From a virus, in IMG/VR virus record IMGVR_UViG_3300042125_000003, positions 1-21,616 of that record: DNA of 21,616 nt. One strand, written 5' to 3'. Positions 3,763 to 20,440 of the stretch are shown here, piece after piece; position 1 is the first letter of the stretch; each line of letters opens with the position of its first letter. The notes under the pieces were generated by a model, which was given only the letters and a program-made list of their open reading frames with translations, was not told the origin of the DNA and did not search any database. Position numbers and translations under genes: made by a program.

Positions 3763-6159
3763 GTGAATCAGGCTGAGCTGGAGCAATACATGGTGGACGG
3801 TGGCCGAGCTAAGGTGCTCGGCTCGTTCAAGCGGAATGAGGAGGCGGGTGCCGCACACAATAACCCGTATGCTGCCGCTGTCTATCGTCGCTTCGTTCAG
3901 CCGCTGGCCGATGCGATCAGCATCTACGCTACAGAGGTGAAACGTGGTGTACAGGCTAGGGCCAAGGTTCTGATGCGCAAGCAAGACCCTTTGCTGATGT
4001 CTGTCACCACGATTCGCACCTTACTGGATGCGTCATTGCAGCAGAAGAAGTCAGCACCGACGGCGGTATCACGGGCCATCGGAGAAACGCTGTACGGGGA
4101 AACGCTTCTAGAAGCATTCGAGAACATCGAACCCGACCTTTACTACACTCTGGTGCGGGATTTTGAGCGCCGGATGACCAAGAGCGAGCGGCACAGGCTC
4201 ACAGTGTTCAAGCAGCAGGCAGCTAAAAACGGTATCCATTTACCGGTATGGTCCTCCGAGGACAAGCTGGCTGTCGGTACGGTGCTGATCTATCTGGCCC
4301 GAGAGATCGGGTTGATCGACATCACCGAGGCCATGGAGCGCGGTAAGACCGTTCGTGAGTACAAGCTGATGCCGGAGATCGCCGGTATGCTGGACCACAT
4401 CAAGGGCTTCGTGGCGGGCATCAGCCCGATCAGCCTGCCCTGTGTGGAGCCGCCGATTCCGTGGACCGATGCGAATACCGGTGGATACCATACCCCGGTG
4501 ATGCGCCGTGTGGCGCCCTGCTGCATCCGTGGCAGGCCGCGAGTCGAAGACCTGTCCGATGTACCGGATATCCCCTTGCGTGCGCTAAACGCGCTACAGC
4601 GGCGTGCATGGGCCATCAATGAGCGGGTGCTCAAGGCGGTCGATGACGTGGGCGCCCGGTTCGACGTGGGCGAGGTGCTGGCACAAGCTGAGCTGCCCAA
4701 GCCGCACCGGCCCGAATGGCTGGACGACGATATGGACAAGGCGTCCCTAAGCCCCGCTCAGCTCGCGGAGTTCAGCGTATGGAAGGCTGAAATGCGTGAG
4801 TGGTACACCACCAACAAGGAGCGGGGCGTACAGTGGGGGCGGTACTACGAGGCGCTGCGCGTGGCTCGCATGTTCAGGGGCAAGCCGTTCTGGTTCGTCT
4901 ACCAGTTCGATTTTAGGGGCCGGTGCTACGCCAACACCCGAGGCGTCAGCCCGCAGGGCAGCGACCTACAGAAGGCCCTGTTGCAGGCGCACAAGGGTAA
5001 CCCGATCAGTACCGAGGCGGCGCGATGGTGGTTCTTCATCGCCGGGGCCAACCGCTTCGGCTACGACAAGGCTACGCTGGACGAGCGCTTCGCATGGACC
5101 GTCGAGCGCTGCGCAATGATCCGGGCCATCGCCGCTGATCCGCTGAGCAATCGCCAGTGGACCGAGGCGGATAACCCATTCCAGTTCCTAGCATGGTGCT
5201 TCGAATATGCAGACTACTTCGCCGATCCCGCTATCTTCGTCTCCCATCTTGCATTGGGGCAGGACGGTAGCTGCAATGGATTACAGCACTTCTCCGCCAT
5301 GCTGCGAGACGAGGTGGGCGGGCGTGCGACTAACCTCGTACCAGCCGAGACACAGCAGGATATCTATCGGCTGGTCAGCGATGAAACAGCACGCCTCCTT
5401 GGCGAAGGAACTGGTATGGGCTGCGTGTATCTGGACCGCTGGCGTCGGCACGCTCTATCACGGGATCTGGTAAAGCGCTCAGTGATGACCCTGCCCTACG
5501 GCTCGACCCGGTTCAGCTGCGGGGAGTTCATCTTCAAGGAGTACGTCAGCAAGCATAAGGCGCCGGAGTTCGCCCCGCCCGAGTACATGAAGGCCAGCAG
5601 GGCGCTCAGCGTGCCCGTGTGGGACGCCATCGGCAATGTGGTGGTCAAGGCAAGGGAAGCCATGGCGTGGCTCCAGAACGCGTCTGACGAGCTTATAGCG
5701 GCAGGTGTGCAGGAGATCTACTGGAGGTCGCCGTCCGGGTTCATGATCCGGCAGCGATACGGGAAGTACGAGTTCATCAAGGTGGAGAGTCGCCTGTCTC
5801 AGACGGTCCGAATCCGGCCCACCATCCAGCAGGAGCTGGAGGAACCGTGCCCCCGCCGACACCGGAACGGTATCGCACCGAACTTCATCCACGGCTGTGA
5901 TGCGGGGCACATGCACTTCCTGATCGTCGAAGCTGACGAGCAGGTCGATCACATGGCCTTCATCCACGATGACTATGGTACGGATGCCGTGTACACTGAG
6001 ACGCTCCACAAGCTCATTAGAGCGACGTTTGTGAAGATGTATACCGAGCGTCAGCCCATCGCTGAATTCGCCTCCCAGTGGGGTATCAGCGCGGCTCAGC
6101 CCACTCCGGGAACCCTTGACCTGAATCAGGTGCTCGATTCCAAGTATTTCTTCGCTTGA
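3763..6159 (+). CDS. Single-subunit DNA-dependent RNA polymerase (T7 family)
   Basis: A 798-residue polymerase, shorter than T7's 883. It transcribes the phage genome from phage-specific promoters. Catalytic features by alignment to T7: D501 in QDGSCNGLQHFSAMLRDEVG (T7 D537), K571 and Y579 in VKRSVMTLPYGS (T7 K631 and Y639), D736 in FIHDDYGTDA (T7 D812). The FDFRGRCYA segment (T7 MDWRGRVYA) and the aromatic-Ala C terminus (KYFFA, compare T7 DFAFA) are kept. The promoter specificity loop lies before GIAPNF; R683 aligns with T7 R756, R685 with Q758, E675 with N748, K673 with R746. Translation starts at GTG 3763 immediately after the ligase stop, with GAGGG at 3751-3755. The gene position, right before the structural block, is phiKMV-like. 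A 21-base promoter element follows the stop by one base. Confidence 0.98.
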   Translation: MNQAELEQYMVDGGRAKVLGSFKRNEEAGAAHNNPYAAAVYRRFVQPLADAISIYATEVKRGVQARAKVLMRKQDPLLMSVTTIRTLLDASLQQKKSAPTAVSRAIGETLYGETLLEAFENIEPDLYYTLVRDFERRMTKSERHRLTVFKQQAAKNGIHLPVWSSEDKLAVGTVLIYLAREIGLIDITEAMERGKTVREYKLMPEIAGMLDHIKGFVAGISPISLPCVEPPIPWTDANTGGYHTPVMRRVAPCCIRGRPRVEDLSDVPDIPLRALNALQRRAWAINERVLKAVDDVGARFDVGEVLAQAELPKPHRPEWLDDDMDKASLSPAQLAEFSVWKAEMREWYTTNKERGVQWGRYYEALRVARMFRGKPFWFVYQFDFRGRCYANTRGVSPQGSDLQKALLQAHKGNPISTEAARWWFFIAGANRFGYDKATLDERFAWTVERCAMIRAIAADPLSNRQWTEADNPFQFLAWCFEYADYFADPAIFVSHLALGQDGSCNGLQHFSAMLRDEVGGRATNLVPAETQQDIYRLVSDETARLLGEGTGMGCVYLDRWRRHALSRDLVKRSVMTLPYGSTRFSCGEFIFKEYVSKHKAPEFAPPEYMKASRALSVPVWDAIGNVVVKAREAMAWLQNASDELIAAGVQEIYWRSPSGFMIRQRYGKYEFIKVESRLSQTVRIRPTIQQELEEPCPRRHRNGIAPNFIHGCDAGHMHFLIVEADEQVDHMAFIHDDYGTDAVYTETLHKLIRATFVKMYTERQPIAEFASQWGISAAQPTPGTLDLNQVLDSKYFFA

Positions 6160-6160
6160 A

Positions 6161-6181
6161 TTAATAGGGCACCTTATCCTA
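6161..6181 (+). promoter_or_regulatory. Phage RNA polymerase promoter, copy 1
   Basis: First of four identical 21-base elements (core TAATAGGGCACCTTATCCTA, preceded by T). Aligned to T7, it keeps TAATA (-17 to -13), G-11, C-9, C-7 and TAT (-4 to -2). It starts one base after the polymerase stop codon and lies 16 bases before ATG 6198. Strict T7 alignment puts +1 at C6179; a start at A6181 is as likely. Confidence 0.85.
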
Positions 6182-6197
6182 CACCGGGAGAAATTCA

Positions 6198-6422
6198 ATG
6201 ATTAAATATTTAGTAAGAAAGATTAAAAGCTTCTTTACTCCAGTAGTTAAAGAGGTTGTAGTAGAGGTTAAGGTTCTTCGACTTACTGAGAACGAGTATG
6301 CTCAGTTGGAGAAGACCTTACCCAACTCCCTGCTGGGAGGGACCGACACTGCGGAGACAGCAGCGTACAAACTGGGCGTGCAACATGCGCTCAGCAAGAT
6401 CCGCTCTGGCATCGTGATTTAA
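6198..6422 (+). CDS. Unknown small protein, 74 residues, AT-rich 5' end
   Basis: Starts at ATG 6198 after GGGAGAA (6184-6190) and is the first gene behind promoter copy 1. The N terminus is basic and amphipathic (MIKYLVRKIKSFFTPVVKEV), followed by an acidic helix and the end AAYKLGVQHALSKIRSGIVI, a pattern I associate with small conserved proteins near the late region of T7-like phages; no function is known to me. The first 20 codons contain only 15 G or C out of 60 bases and use codons such as TTA and AGA, quite unlike neighbouring genes, while the second half has normal GC-rich codons. The TAA stop is formed by the TAA of promoter copy 2. Confidence 0.75.
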   Translation: MIKYLVRKIKSFFTPVVKEVVVEVKVLRLTENEYAQLEKTLPNSLLGGTDTAETAAYKLGVQHALSKIRSGIVI

Positions 6423-6439
6423 TAGGGCACCTTATCCTA
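6419..6439 (+). promoter_or_regulatory. Phage RNA polymerase promoter, copy 2
   Basis: Identical to copy 1. Its TAA at 6420-6422 is also the stop codon of the 74-residue gene. It is followed at once by AGGAG and a TTG start at 6450. The stretch down to CATTTTG (6446-6452) also resembles the leader behind copy 3. Confidence 0.85.
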
Positions 6440-9626: not shown

Positions 9627-9650
9627 GGTGCCCTAAATTAATAGGGCACC
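9627..9650 (+). promoter_or_regulatory. Hairpin overlapping the capsid promoter
   Basis: GGTGCCCTA (9627-9635), a 6-base AATTAA loop, and TAGGGCACC (9642-9650) form a perfect 9-bp stem. The right arm is part of promoter copy 3. The left arm is absent from the other three copies. In read-through RNA it would form a stable stem followed by UUAU, so it could attenuate or mark processing of upstream transcripts just before the capsid promoter restarts transcription. Confidence 0.7.
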
Positions 9651-9658
9651 TTATCCTA
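9638..9658 (+). promoter_or_regulatory. Phage RNA polymerase promoter, copy 3 (capsid)
   Basis: Identical 21-base element in the 87-base gap between scaffold and capsid genes, equivalent in place to the strong phi10 promoter of T7. The leader after it (AGAAACCATTTTG) resembles that after copy 2 at 10 of 13 positions. The capsid ribosome site AAGGAG follows at 9684-9689. Confidence 0.87.
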
Positions 9659-13798: not shown

Positions 13799-14506
13799 AT
13801 GATCTGGTTGGCAGCTGCGATGGGGGCCATGGCCCTCAAGCAGGGCCTTGACGCAAAGAATCAGGCCAAGGCGGATCAAATCACCGCCAAGTCCACCGCC
13901 AAGGTGGAGAACATGCGTCGAGACATCGACAACATGATGTCCAAGGCCAAAGGTGACCTTGCCCGTTTCCAGCAGGCGCGTAGCAACAAGTACGCGCTCC
14001 AGTCTGGCGGACGAGCAGAGGACACCGCGACGGTAAACATGCTGCGCCTGTCCGATCAGGCTGTGCGCGGCTCCATTGAAATGCGTATCGCCGCCGCCGA
14101 AGAGGCGGGCGCACTGGCTGCACGGGTGGGCTTCGCGGGAGTAGGTGGAGGTTCGGTAGAAATGCTGAACAACACCAACGCAGTGCGGCAGCAGCGCGCT
14201 CGGGAGTTGTCGGACACCATGACCGATACCCAGCTCTTTGATATGGGTGAGCAAAAGGCGTTTACTCGCGAGCAGACCATCCTCGGACTGGACGACATTC
14301 AGTTCGCAGACGGTATGAACTTCATGCGTGCTCAAGAGCAGTACATCAAGCAGCCTTCGTGGTTCGAAGTAGGGGCCAACGCTGCTATGGCCTTCGGCAC
14401 CAGCTATGCCAGCATGGGTGGCTTCAAGGGCTGGGGCAGTGGCACACCGAAGATCAGCGGTGACATTCAGGCTGTAGGCAACATGCCAAACAGCGCATTA
14501 GCATAA
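13799..14506 (+). CDS. Internal virion protein (T7 gp14-like)
   Basis: A 235-residue, Ala- and Met-rich helical protein in the position of T7 gp14 (196 residues), which is ejected into the outer membrane as part of the DNA-ejection channel. It opens with a hydrophobic segment (MIWLAAAMGAMALKQG), then a long charged helix (residues about 20-60), a Gly-rich turn around VGFAGVGGGSVEM, and a helical end with AMAFGTSYASMGG. AGGAGG (13785-13790) lies 8 bases before ATG 13799. Identity of sequence to T7 is low, so the call depends on order, size and composition. Confidence 0.8.
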   Translation: MIWLAAAMGAMALKQGLDAKNQAKADQITAKSTAKVENMRRDIDNMMSKAKGDLARFQQARSNKYALQSGGRAEDTATVNMLRLSDQAVRGSIEMRIAAAEEAGALAARVGFAGVGGGSVEMLNNTNAVRQQRARELSDTMTDTQLFDMGEQKAFTREQTILGLDDIQFADGMNFMRAQEQYIKQPSWFEVGANAAMAFGTSYASMGGFKGWGSGTPKISGDIQAVGNMPNSALA

Positions 14507-16841: not shown

Positions 16842-19800
16842 ATGGATTTGATGAATACCAAGCCTGCCGACATCAAGGCAGCAACAGACCAACGCAAGAC
16901 CGACCGCCTTGAGCAGAAGGTACTCGCCAAGCCAAAGTACACTCCGGCAGAGCAGCAGGCTGTGGAGAACGTGCAGACCGCTACCATCTTCGCTGGCGTA
17001 GCTGCGGGCCTTGATGCTCGACAGGCCGCAGCCGCTGCCGTCAAAGTACGGCAAGCCACCATCGGTAGCGAAGAGTCCGTCAATGCATTGGTGCAGACGT
17101 TGCCCGGCGATTCGGACATCGTGGGCACTGCCAAGCAGATCGCCGGTGCGCAGGACATTCAGGAGAAGGCCAAGGGCAAAGCCCAGTGGACCACCTTTCT
17201 GGATCAGGCAGAGGCGGGCTTTGTCGAGCTTACAGCGCTGCCGCAGTTGCTGCGGACCCTCGACCGCGCAGACTTTGAACCGGACGCCAACTTCGACTAC
17301 ATGGCCATCCGAGACAAGGTAGAGTTCGGGATGGCCAACGAGGACCGTACATGGCTGCGCGAGAGCGTAAGCCAAGAAGACCTCGACAGCCGTCTGGCGG
17401 TGCTCAAGACCAAGCAGGAGAACCTGCAAACGCTGGGCGCGCACGGCGAGGGTATGGCCCTTGCGGCGGGGATCACCGGCGGGTTCATGGACCCGGTAGG
17501 CTGGGTGGCGGGTATGGGCGTAGGCAAGGCCGCACAGCTGGCGGGTGTGGGTAGCCGCATCGTGGCCGCACAGGGTCAGCTGGGCCGGGCCATTGTGTAC
17601 GGGGCAGGTGAGGGCATCACCGGTTCGGTGCTCACTACAGCGGCTCTGGATGCAGCAGGCGGGCACGTCACCTACAACGACTACGTTATGTCAGCGGCAT
17701 TCGGTGCAGTGTTCGGTCAACTAGGGCTGCTGGCGTACAAGCGCCCAGTGAATACTACCGAGGCCGTACCGCCTGCACAGCCGGGCGAGTTCGACTTCAC
17801 CGGACCGCTGCCTGCCAGTGCGCAGGAAGCCGCGCAGGATCTGATGGCGCGGGCGCAGAAGTTCAACGAAGACATCTACGCTGAGGCGCAGGGCCGGGCA
17901 CCGGCTGACGCCACTCCAGAACAGATCCGGGAGGCCGCCGACGACATCATGCGGGAGCGCGCAGACAACCTGCATCGCACCGTGTTTGCGGAGGTTCCCG
18001 AGGGTGACCGCTTCTTCCCTGCATACGATCTGGACGTACGGGAGGACGGTACTGTACCGCCACTGGACGAGGTGATGCGACCATCCACAGAGCGAATCGC
18101 AGCACAGGATCGCTGGGGTATCAACCAGCACACGGTGGAGAACGATGCAGAGCGGAAGATGCTTGGCGAGCTGGCCGCAAGGGCCGACTCGTGGGCAGCT
18201 GCCAACCCATTCGATCAGGCGCGTCTGGATAGCGTGCTGGGCCGCATCCCGTGGCTGTCCTCTACCGGGCTGACCTTGGCACGTAGCCAGAACCCGGTTG
18301 CCCGCATGATCGCGGGTACTCTGCTGGAGTCCACAACGGGCGCCACCGGGCGCCGCCGCACAGCCGCCGTAAGCAAGACCATGCGAGAGCGGGTCTACAT
18401 GGAGGATCTGGTAGGGTATGAAGAGCAATACAAGATGTGGCGGGCTAAGAACGGGGGCAGCGCCTATCGTGACGTCATTGGCAGTGATACACGGGCACGA
18501 TTTGATCGGCTTGTTGCCAGTGAGCGCGAGAACCGTAGACTCGGTGTGCGCACTGATGCTGACCAGCATGTGCGTGTGGCTAGTGATCACCTTGACGCTG
18601 GCTACGATAGAATGCGTCGTGACCAGCAGACAGTTGGCACAATCGGTGCCGAGCGATTGGGCGACACCTCTATCGGCTATGCTCACCGAAGCCTCTCCCC
18701 GTCGTGGGTAATGCAAGCCAGTAACGCGGAAATCGAGGCTCTGGCCTCCCGCCTTGCCGTGCAGCTCCAAGACGGCTGGGGTGATGTGCAGTTCGCTCGG
18801 CAGATCGCCACTCGCTACATCGAAAGAGCGCGGACTACAGCCTACGGGGGTACAGCGATACCCGCCAACATGGCTAGCCCACAGGCAGCAGAGGTTCTGC
18901 GAGACGTTCTGCGCTCTATGAACGTAGCCGATGCAGATATCAACCTAGCCATGGGCCGGTTCAGCCGGGGCGGGGCAGCGCACACCAAGAAACGTCTGGA
19001 ACTGGACCTCACTGAGCAGATCGACCTGCCCGGTGGCCGTAGTTTCCCCATGATGAACGCCTTCGAGACTGATCAGGCCAGCCTCTACATGCAGTATGCT
19101 CGCCGTGTGAGTGGCGATATCGCCCTTACACAGTACGGCGTACACGGTGATCAGGGCATGAAGCTGCTGCGCAAGGCTATGGAGTACGGGCCGGACGGTA
19201 AGCGCGCCACGGCGCATGAAATGGAGGCCTTCGATCAGATCTACGCGGAGTTCTACGGACGTGCGCTTGAGGGCACTGGCAACAAGCACCTCGGTAACTT
19301 GCGTTTGCTGACTGCTGCGAGCCGACTGGGGGGCATGGCCTTCACGCAGTTCGCTGAAATGGCCAACGCCGTGGCCCTGCTGGGTGTAGGCGGTGCCTTG
19401 AAGATGGTAGGCAGGCTGCCGGGCCTGATAGCGGACATCCACGCCGGGCGTCCAAGCGAGCTGCTGGCGTCCATCGAGCAGATCGGCGGGCCTCTTGGGC
19501 AGGATCACCGGGTGATCTTCCCGTTCCAAGAACCCAACGACATCCGCATCTACGGGCGAGACAGTCTGAACACCTTTGATCGCATAATTCGGGCGGGTAG
19601 CAACGCGGTGCCGTGGCTCTCGGGCTGGCATCACATGCATGCTGCACAGGTCCGAGGCATCAGTGAGCAGATCGTTCACAAGTCCATGCGGTACATCCGT
19701 AATGGGGAAGAGAACGCGGCGCTGACCTCCATGGGTATCAGTCCTGAAATGGCTGCCATCATGCGGGCAGAGCTTCCGAAGATCGCCAAGTTCGATGACG

Positions 19801-20423
19801 AAGGCAATCTGGTGGCACTGGACCTCACCCGGTCGCAGGAATTCGCTACCATCAGTGAGTATGTGCAGGCCGTGCATCGCGGCAGCAAGCAGATCATTCA
19901 GGGCACCTACATTGGCGAGACTGGCAAGTGGGCGCACAATGATCTGATGCGGCTGCTGGTGCAGTTCCGGTCGTTCACTCTCACCTCTATGGAGAAGCAG
20001 TGGACCCGCCAGCGTACCGACGTGGGCACGGCCAAGGCGTTCGGTATTCTGGCCGGGCAGATGGCGTTTGCTCTGCCAATCCACATGAGCCGCGTTATGA
20101 TCAACGCCACCGGGCGGGAGGACCGAGAAGAGTACGTCAAGAAGCAGCTTGATCCACAGATGCTGGCACGGGCTGTGCTGAACTACACCTCTATCAGCGG
20201 TCTGGCCGGTGACATCTTCGACGCCGGTGCGGTGCTGGCCGGTGGCGAGGTGAGTGGCGTGCGCTCCGGGTCCAGCTCGGCGCTCGGTGCTGTGCCGGGC
20301 CTCGGCTATGTGGAGTCTGCCGCTAAGGTGGCGCGTGACAAAGACCCTCGGGAAGCGATTCGTATGCTACCCGGAGGGAACCTGCCCTTCCTGACTCCGG
20401 TGGTTAACCACCTGACAGATTAA
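16842..20423 (+). CDS. Internal virion protein (T7 gp16-like), no visible lytic domain
   Basis: A 1193-residue protein, the largest in the window, in the T7 gp16 (1318 residues) position. In T7 this protein is ejected to span the cell envelope and help pull DNA in. Visible features: a helical N terminus without a signal peptide; a hydrophobic, Gly/Ala-rich stretch (residues about 205-300, including MDPVGWVAGMGVGKAAQLAG and AAFGAVFGQLGLLAY) that may insert in a membrane; and the conserved C-terminal motif RLLVQFRSFTLTSMEKQWTR (about 1037-1056), common in gp16-like proteins. T7 gp16 starts with a lytic transglycosylase domain of about 150 residues; I see no such ES...GAxGxxQ pattern at either end. 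AGGAGG (16832-16837) lies 4 bases before the ATG. The stop TAA is part of promoter copy 4. Confidence 0.85.
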   Translation: MDLMNTKPADIKAATDQRKTDRLEQKVLAKPKYTPAEQQAVENVQTATIFAGVAAGLDARQAAAAAVKVRQATIGSEESVNALVQTLPGDSDIVGTAKQIAGAQDIQEKAKGKAQWTTFLDQAEAGFVELTALPQLLRTLDRADFEPDANFDYMAIRDKVEFGMANEDRTWLRESVSQEDLDSRLAVLKTKQENLQTLGAHGEGMALAAGITGGFMDPVGWVAGMGVGKAAQLAGVGSRIVAAQGQLGRAIVYGAGEGITGSVLTTAALDAAGGHVTYNDYVMSAAFGAVFGQLGLLAYKRPVNTTEAVPPAQPGEFDFTGPLPASAQEAAQDLMARAQKFNEDIYAEAQGRAPADATPEQIREAADDIMRERADNLHRTVFAEVPEGDRFFPAYDLDVREDGTVPPLDEVMRPSTERIAAQDRWGINQHTVENDAERKMLGELAARADSWAAANPFDQARLDSVLGRIPWLSSTGLTLARSQNPVARMIAGTLLESTTGATGRRRTAAVSKTMRERVYMEDLVGYEEQYKMWRAKNGGSAYRDVIGSDTRARFDRLVASERENRRLGVRTDADQHVRVASDHLDAGYDRMRRDQQTVGTIGAERLGDTSIGYAHRSLSPSWVMQASNAEIEALASRLAVQLQDGWGDVQFARQIATRYIERARTTAYGGTAIPANMASPQAAEVLRDVLRSMNVADADINLAMGRFSRGGAAHTKKRLELDLTEQIDLPGGRSFPMMNAFETDQASLYMQYARRVSGDIALTQYGVHGDQGMKLLRKAMEYGPDGKRATAHEMEAFDQIYAEFYGRALEGTGNKHLGNLRLLTAASRLGGMAFTQFAEMANAVALLGVGGALKMVGRLPGLIADIHAGRPSELLASIEQIGGPLGQDHRVIFPFQEPNDIRIYGRDSLNTFDRIIRAGSNAVPWLSGWHHMHAAQVRGISEQIVHKSMRYIRNGEENAALTSMGISPEMAAIMRAELPKIAKFDDEGNLVALDLTRSQEFATISEYVQAVHRGSKQIIQGTYIGETGKWAHNDLMRLLVQFRSFTLTSMEKQWTRQRTDVGTAKAFGILAGQMAFALPIHMSRVMINATGREDREEYVKKQLDPQMLARAVLNYTSISGLAGDIFDAGAVLAGGEVSGVRSGSSSALGAVPGLGYVESAAKVARDKDPREAIRMLPGGNLPFLTPVVNHLTD
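20399..20412 (+). repeat. Perfect 14-bp palindrome before promoter copy 4
   Basis: GGTGGTTAACCACC is its own reverse complement and lies inside the last codons of the gp16-like gene, ending 7 bases before promoter copy 4. It also encodes protein, so it may be fortuitous; possible roles are a binding site or a read-through hairpin. Confidence 0.5.
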
Positions 20424-20440
20424 TAGGGCACCTTATCCTA
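20420..20440 (+). promoter_or_regulatory. Phage RNA polymerase promoter, copy 4 (tail fibre)
   Basis: Identical 21-base element. Its TAA at 20421-20423 is the stop codon of the 1193-residue gene. It gives the tail fibre gene its own transcription, as in other phages where fibre and lysis genes follow a separate late promoter. Confidence 0.87.

Follow-up and report, generated by a model that had tools for sequence, protein, structure and literature searches.

The locus raises the question of whether the specificity loop of a phage RNA polymerase (RNAP) and the promoter that this enzyme probably reads have changed together and, if so, which loop residues go with which promoter bases. The original prediction, derived from comparison with T7, held that the loop arginine R683 and the C at -9 that it would read were kept, whereas K673, E675 and R685 had changed along with the bases at -12 to -10 and -8. 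Co-divergence of loop and promoter is already known for this enzyme family: the N748D substitution is reported to switch T7 RNAP to the T3 promoter, with variability of the loop among phages described as established (PMC11477551), and T7-like promoter specificity has been surveyed from phage genomes (Zhu et al., 2025, 10.1093/nar/gkaf140, as cited in PMC12272871). The pair described here adds another case near phage VSW-3.

A VSW-3-like RNA polymerase and its probable promoter

The window, that is, the whole stretch of 21,616 nucleotides analysed here, corresponds to a virus record of 21.6 kb in IMG/VR (IMGVR_UViG_3300042125_000003), the nearest characterised relative being Pseudomonas phage VSW-3. 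At positions 3763..6159 of the plus strand, with a GTG start, it encodes a 798 aa protein that is an ordinary single-subunit (T7-type) phage RNAP, closest to the VSW-3 enzyme. The protein matches T7 RNAP in a phmmer search (E=1e-96; matched stretches 3-546 and 537-798), shows 72% amino acid identity to VSW-3 RNAP over the full length and contains the equivalents of all the catalytic residues D537, K631, Y639 and D812 (T7 numbering). An AlphaFold2 model with 31 relatives as input has a mean pLDDT of 88, and its best Foldseek matches are all T7 RNAP (E 1e-46, TM ~0.8). The likeness to VSW-3 (Napahaivirus; PMC9624206) extends to the length of the protein, the genome layout, the length of the loop and the arginines at T7 positions 756 and 758; the two sequences are offset by a one-residue gap, and position-by-position comparison needs an alignment.

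The promoter TTAATAGGGCACCTTATCCTA is present in four exact copies on the plus strand (0.00 expected; counted as 20-mers starting at 6162, 6420, 9639 and 20421, about one base inside the copies as delimited here), each at a junction between the end of one gene and the next. The first copy (6161..6181) lies directly 3' of the RNAP stop codon, the second (6419..6439) comes after the small gene 6198-6422, the third (9638..9658) is 5' of the major capsid gene, and the fourth (20420..20440) precedes the gene that follows the one at 16842-20423. The RNAP of the window thus probably has its own repeated promoter, located before late genes. In two of the four copies, the TAA of the AT box is at the same time the stop codon with which the preceding gene ends (6420-6422 and 20421-20423).

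An AAT-box and GGGC promoter at the junction between the RNAP gene and the next gene is found in the window, as in the VSW-3-like pairs, and close relatives with enough downstream sequence carry a repeated motif of like build directly 3' of the RNAP gene. The VSW-3 promoter, TTAATTGGGCCACCTATA, with G as the start base, is reported to have been mapped by 5'-RACE and truncation (PMC9624206) and occupies the same gene junctions as in the window. At 13840, VSW-3 (L023) has one more promoter copy, its fourth, CTAATCGGGCCACCTATAGTA, in which C replaces T before GGGC.

In the copy at the capsid gene, the recognition bases constitute the 3' arm of a hairpin with a perfect 9-bp stem (9627-9650), GGTGCCCTA-aattaa-TAGGGCACC, with -17.1 kcal/mol and a z of -4.2. 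Hairpins were also detected at the capsid-gene promoters of L031, L032, L021, VSW-3, Andromeda, L115 and L044, with stem scores of 5-8 (99th percentile of the background, 5), and the stem changes in step with the promoter across the relatives; the arrangement is absent from the other three promoters of the window. The hairpin could represent a fusion of the promoter with a terminator or an RNase III site, or else an opposed second binding site.

The specificity loop in comparison with T7

The specificity loop region (T7 residues ~732-772) maps to 5737..5862 of the plus strand and lies between conserved blocks in an ungapped alignment. Residues G659-T687 align with G732-T760 of T7 with no gap in an HMMER alignment to T7, in an eight-sequence family alignment and in a MAFFT alignment of 50-plus sequences that takes in T7, T3, K11, SP6 and Syn5. 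The stretch 5779-5823 comprises codons K673-T687 of the RNAP, in which K673 (5779..5781) is equivalent to T7 R746, E675 (5785..5787) to N748, R683 (5809..5811) to R756 and R685 (5815..5817) to Q758. These four equivalences, drawn by eye in the original prediction, are borne out by all three alignments. Residues 681-691 of the AlphaFold2 model have a pLDDT below 50, so that it provides no evidence for or against the placement of R683 and R685. Hereinafter, the residues at T7 positions 746, 748, 756 and 758 are given as a set, K/E/R/R for the window.

In the summary that we cite for T7 (PMC5937735), N748 contacts -10/-11, R756 contacts -9 and Q758 contacts -8; because the loop is described there as reading -11 to -7, the -12 base is not a loop contact in that account. 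The window RNAP shares with T7 and T3 the ungapped loop, R756 and the catalytic residues but differs from them in the replacement of R746, N748 and Q758 and in the promoter bases. That both residues and bases differ from T7 is correct, but the extent of the difference is no more than expected from distance, given that the identity to T7 RNAP is 32% overall (251 of the 781 aligned residues) and 23% in the loop (7 of 31): at this distance, three of the four residues and several promoter bases would differ anyway. Comparison with T7 only, with a protein that is 32% identical, cannot show co-evolution and, therefore, sister comparisons are needed. The difference from T7 is most plausibly the ordinary divergence of a matched pair, with no special event in this phage.

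Covariation of loop and promoter across the family

To this end, we assembled 24 RNAP-promoter pairs, namely, the window and 23 relatives with 48-73% identity to it. The promoters were aligned on the AT box, and promoter difference was compared with the difference in single protein columns or in 21-column windows of the protein, with the whole-protein distance removed. The distant Caulobacter, KBC54 and phiKMV-like phages were left out of the statistics, having either no clean repeated promoter after the RNAP gene or a two-residue deletion in the loop after position 758; a scan of bacterial genome contigs yielded only five RNAP relatives, with 29-32% identity. In a phylogenetic tree built without the loop, the window belongs to an eight-member clade with VSW-3 (SH-aLRT 100).

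The scan of the whole protein singled out the specificity loop: the best six of the 244 windows all start at T7 750-765, so that the top-ranked stretch (T7 750-785) consists of the C-terminal half of the loop and the residues just beyond, and none of the 3000 permutations of the maximum window reached the observed value (p <1/3000). Partial Mantel tests are liberal on related sequences, and the ranking is a stronger argument than the p value. The pre-chosen stretch 739-759 showed no significant association after removal of the whole-protein distance (partial r 0.08, p 0.19). Independent pairs taken from the tree are too few for a test; two or three of four and two of two go in the expected direction, and none goes against it.

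Among single positions, 758, the equivalent of R685, shows the closest correspondence to a promoter base of any loop position in the family: it ranks third of 584 columns against the fourth base beyond the AT box (r 0.58, permutation p 0.0007). R758 is accompanied by C at this base in all 15 phages that have it, whereas Q758 goes with T in Luutsna-6 (L025), L036 and L039; the sisters L038 and L039, which are 83% identical, switch both, from R and C to Q and T. At the -8 base, PollyC (Q with C) and L044 (Q with G) are exceptions, and phages with K758 follow no clean rule. Position 756 tracks the third base more weakly (r 0.23, rank 57), with Q or S accompanying T, and R or K accompanying C or G. 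Over the whole set, neither 748 nor 746 shows any correspondence to the second base (r -0.13 and -0.10, respectively). In one subclade, that of the PollyC-like phages, the register is set by TATAG or TCTAG. Here, A-10 is found with N748 (as in T7), C-10 with D748 (as in T3), T-9 with Q756 and C-9 with R or K756, which is the T7/T3 pattern. The loci of the T7 clade repeat known patterns (R/N/R/Q with CGACT, R/D/R/Q with T3-type promoters and R/K/N/K with GGGCA), although these comprise few independent pairs. The T7 contact pattern is therefore supported at 758 across the family and at 748 and 756 in one subclade, not in the group of the window.

An alternative is that there is no specific matching at these residues, the loop and the promoter having merely diverged while specificity resides in other residues. 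The low identity to T7, the lack of significance for the stretch 739-759, and the dissociation of K/E/R/R from the promoter bases in PSTNGR1 and L035 (see below) agree with this explanation. The whole-protein scan, which picks out the C-terminal arm of the loop and places 758 near the top for one base, speaks against it, as do the loop contacts of T7, which are known from experiment according to the same summary (PMC5937735); we regard this alternative as improbable. The proposal that protein and promoter have evolved together is thus supported in its general form, promoter divergence being tied to the loop over the 24 phages, with single positions identified (758, and 748/756 in the PollyC-like subclade); the particular residue-base pairs that had been put forward are not.

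Residues and bases in the group of the window

Seven of the eight members of the clade combine K/E/R/R with GGGCAC. VSW-3 alone has changed 746/748, to L/K, and it alone has GGGCCACC. Outside this correspondence, residues and bases come apart in both directions. PSTNGR1 and L035 have K/E/R/R, but their promoters read G(C/A)CCC rather than GGGCA. Conversely, GGGC is kept with L/K at 746/748 in VSW-3 (L/K/R/R with GGGCCACC), R/S in Andromeda (R/S/R/R with GGGCCAC), E/K in Syn5 (E/K/R/K with GGGCACC) and R/K in K11 (R/K/N/K with GGGCAC). Because of this dissociation, E675 and K673 alone do not set the GGG, and the pairing of these two residues with promoter bases that had been proposed does not hold for the group of the window.

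Two further systems illustrate the point. The promoter of Klebsiella phage K11/KpnP, AATTAGGGCACACTATAGGGA (PMC12272871), has the recognition bases AGGGCAC as in the window, but the loop of K11, R/K/N/K, represents a different solution to nearly identical DNA. The promoter of cyanophage Syn5 (L109), ATTGGGCACCCGTAA (PMC6834552), shares the GGGCACC core, and the RNAP shares the equivalents of R750 and R756, whereas 746/748 are E/K, with the charges of the window's K/E interchanged; it is possible that the two are charge-swapped solutions to the same GGGCACC.

Promoter register and the start base

Which residue faces the conserved C of GGGC depends on the register. Counted from the AT box with the T7 spacing, the promoter of the window has C at -9 and A at -8. 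This count underlies the view that C-9 is the contact of R683, as it is of R756 in T7, with K673, E675 and R685 changed along with the bases at -12 to -10 and -8. VSW-3, for which the start was mapped by 5'-RACE, has the 17-base spacing, and R756 with C-9 and R758 with C-8 would fit that promoter (PMC9624206). However, in L021, L031 and L032, which have the same K/E/R/R loop as the window, promoters reading GGGCACC or GGGCACT and an intact TATAG, the spacing from the box to the start falls one base short of that in T7 and VSW-3 (16 versus 17). Applied to the window, the 16-base spacing puts the conserved C at -8 and GGG at -11 to -9. Moreover, with the C counted as -9, no correspondence is seen between it and position 756 (r 0.11, p 0.30) or between the base that follows and 758 (r 0.07, p 0.17), and the same loop also occurs with G(C/A)CCC promoters as described above. 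This view accordingly appears unlikely: R683 is indeed the equivalent of R756, but the register of the relatives would place the C at -8, opposite R685. Because of the spacing in these three relatives and the covariation of 758 with the fourth base, R685 is more likely to be the reader of the conserved C, which would lie at -8 rather than at -9 opposite R683.

The start region of the window also differs from that of VSW-3. All four promoter copies read TTATCC in place of TATAG (6178-6181, 6436-6439, 9655-9658 and 20437-20440), so that GGGCACC TTATCC in the window stands against GGGCCACC TATAG in VSW-3, in addition to K/E against L/K at 746/748. The TATA and start G of VSW-3 are absent from the promoter of the window, and other clade members are without them as well. 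By either count, the expected start base in the window is C; with no G at this position, transcription may begin with C or A. Elsewhere, the promoter of L034 reads TTATCT, and those of L029 and L030 read TATAA or CATAA. The combined proposition that the loop of the clade reads the promoter one base out of the T7 frame, that K/E reads GGG where Syn5 uses E/K, and that the window promoter initiates with C rather than G is doubtful.

A proposed model of promoter recognition

We consider it most plausible, with a probability of roughly 0.6, that the VSW-3-like RNAP reads its own promoter via the specificity loop, that loop and promoter change together, and that R685 reads the C of GGGC. By homology to T7, the enzyme would recognise the late-gene promoter, an AT box followed by GGGCACC, through the loop inserted in the major groove. 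Within the clade, loop and promoter would change together, the loop chiefly in its C-terminal arm. Judging from the covariation, R685 (T7 758) would read the conserved C, most likely at -8, and R683 would adjoin a G/C pair; K673 and E675 probably contribute to recognition of the GGG, without a fixed rule of one residue to one base.

The principle itself is not new. The pair in the window lies near VSW-3, whose RNAP serves for in vitro transcription with low dsRNA, and it belongs to a set of ~24 natural pairs. The set includes sister contrasts that combine a single loop change (R or Q at 758) with a single base change (C or T) and could serve directly to test the recognition code beyond the T7 branch.
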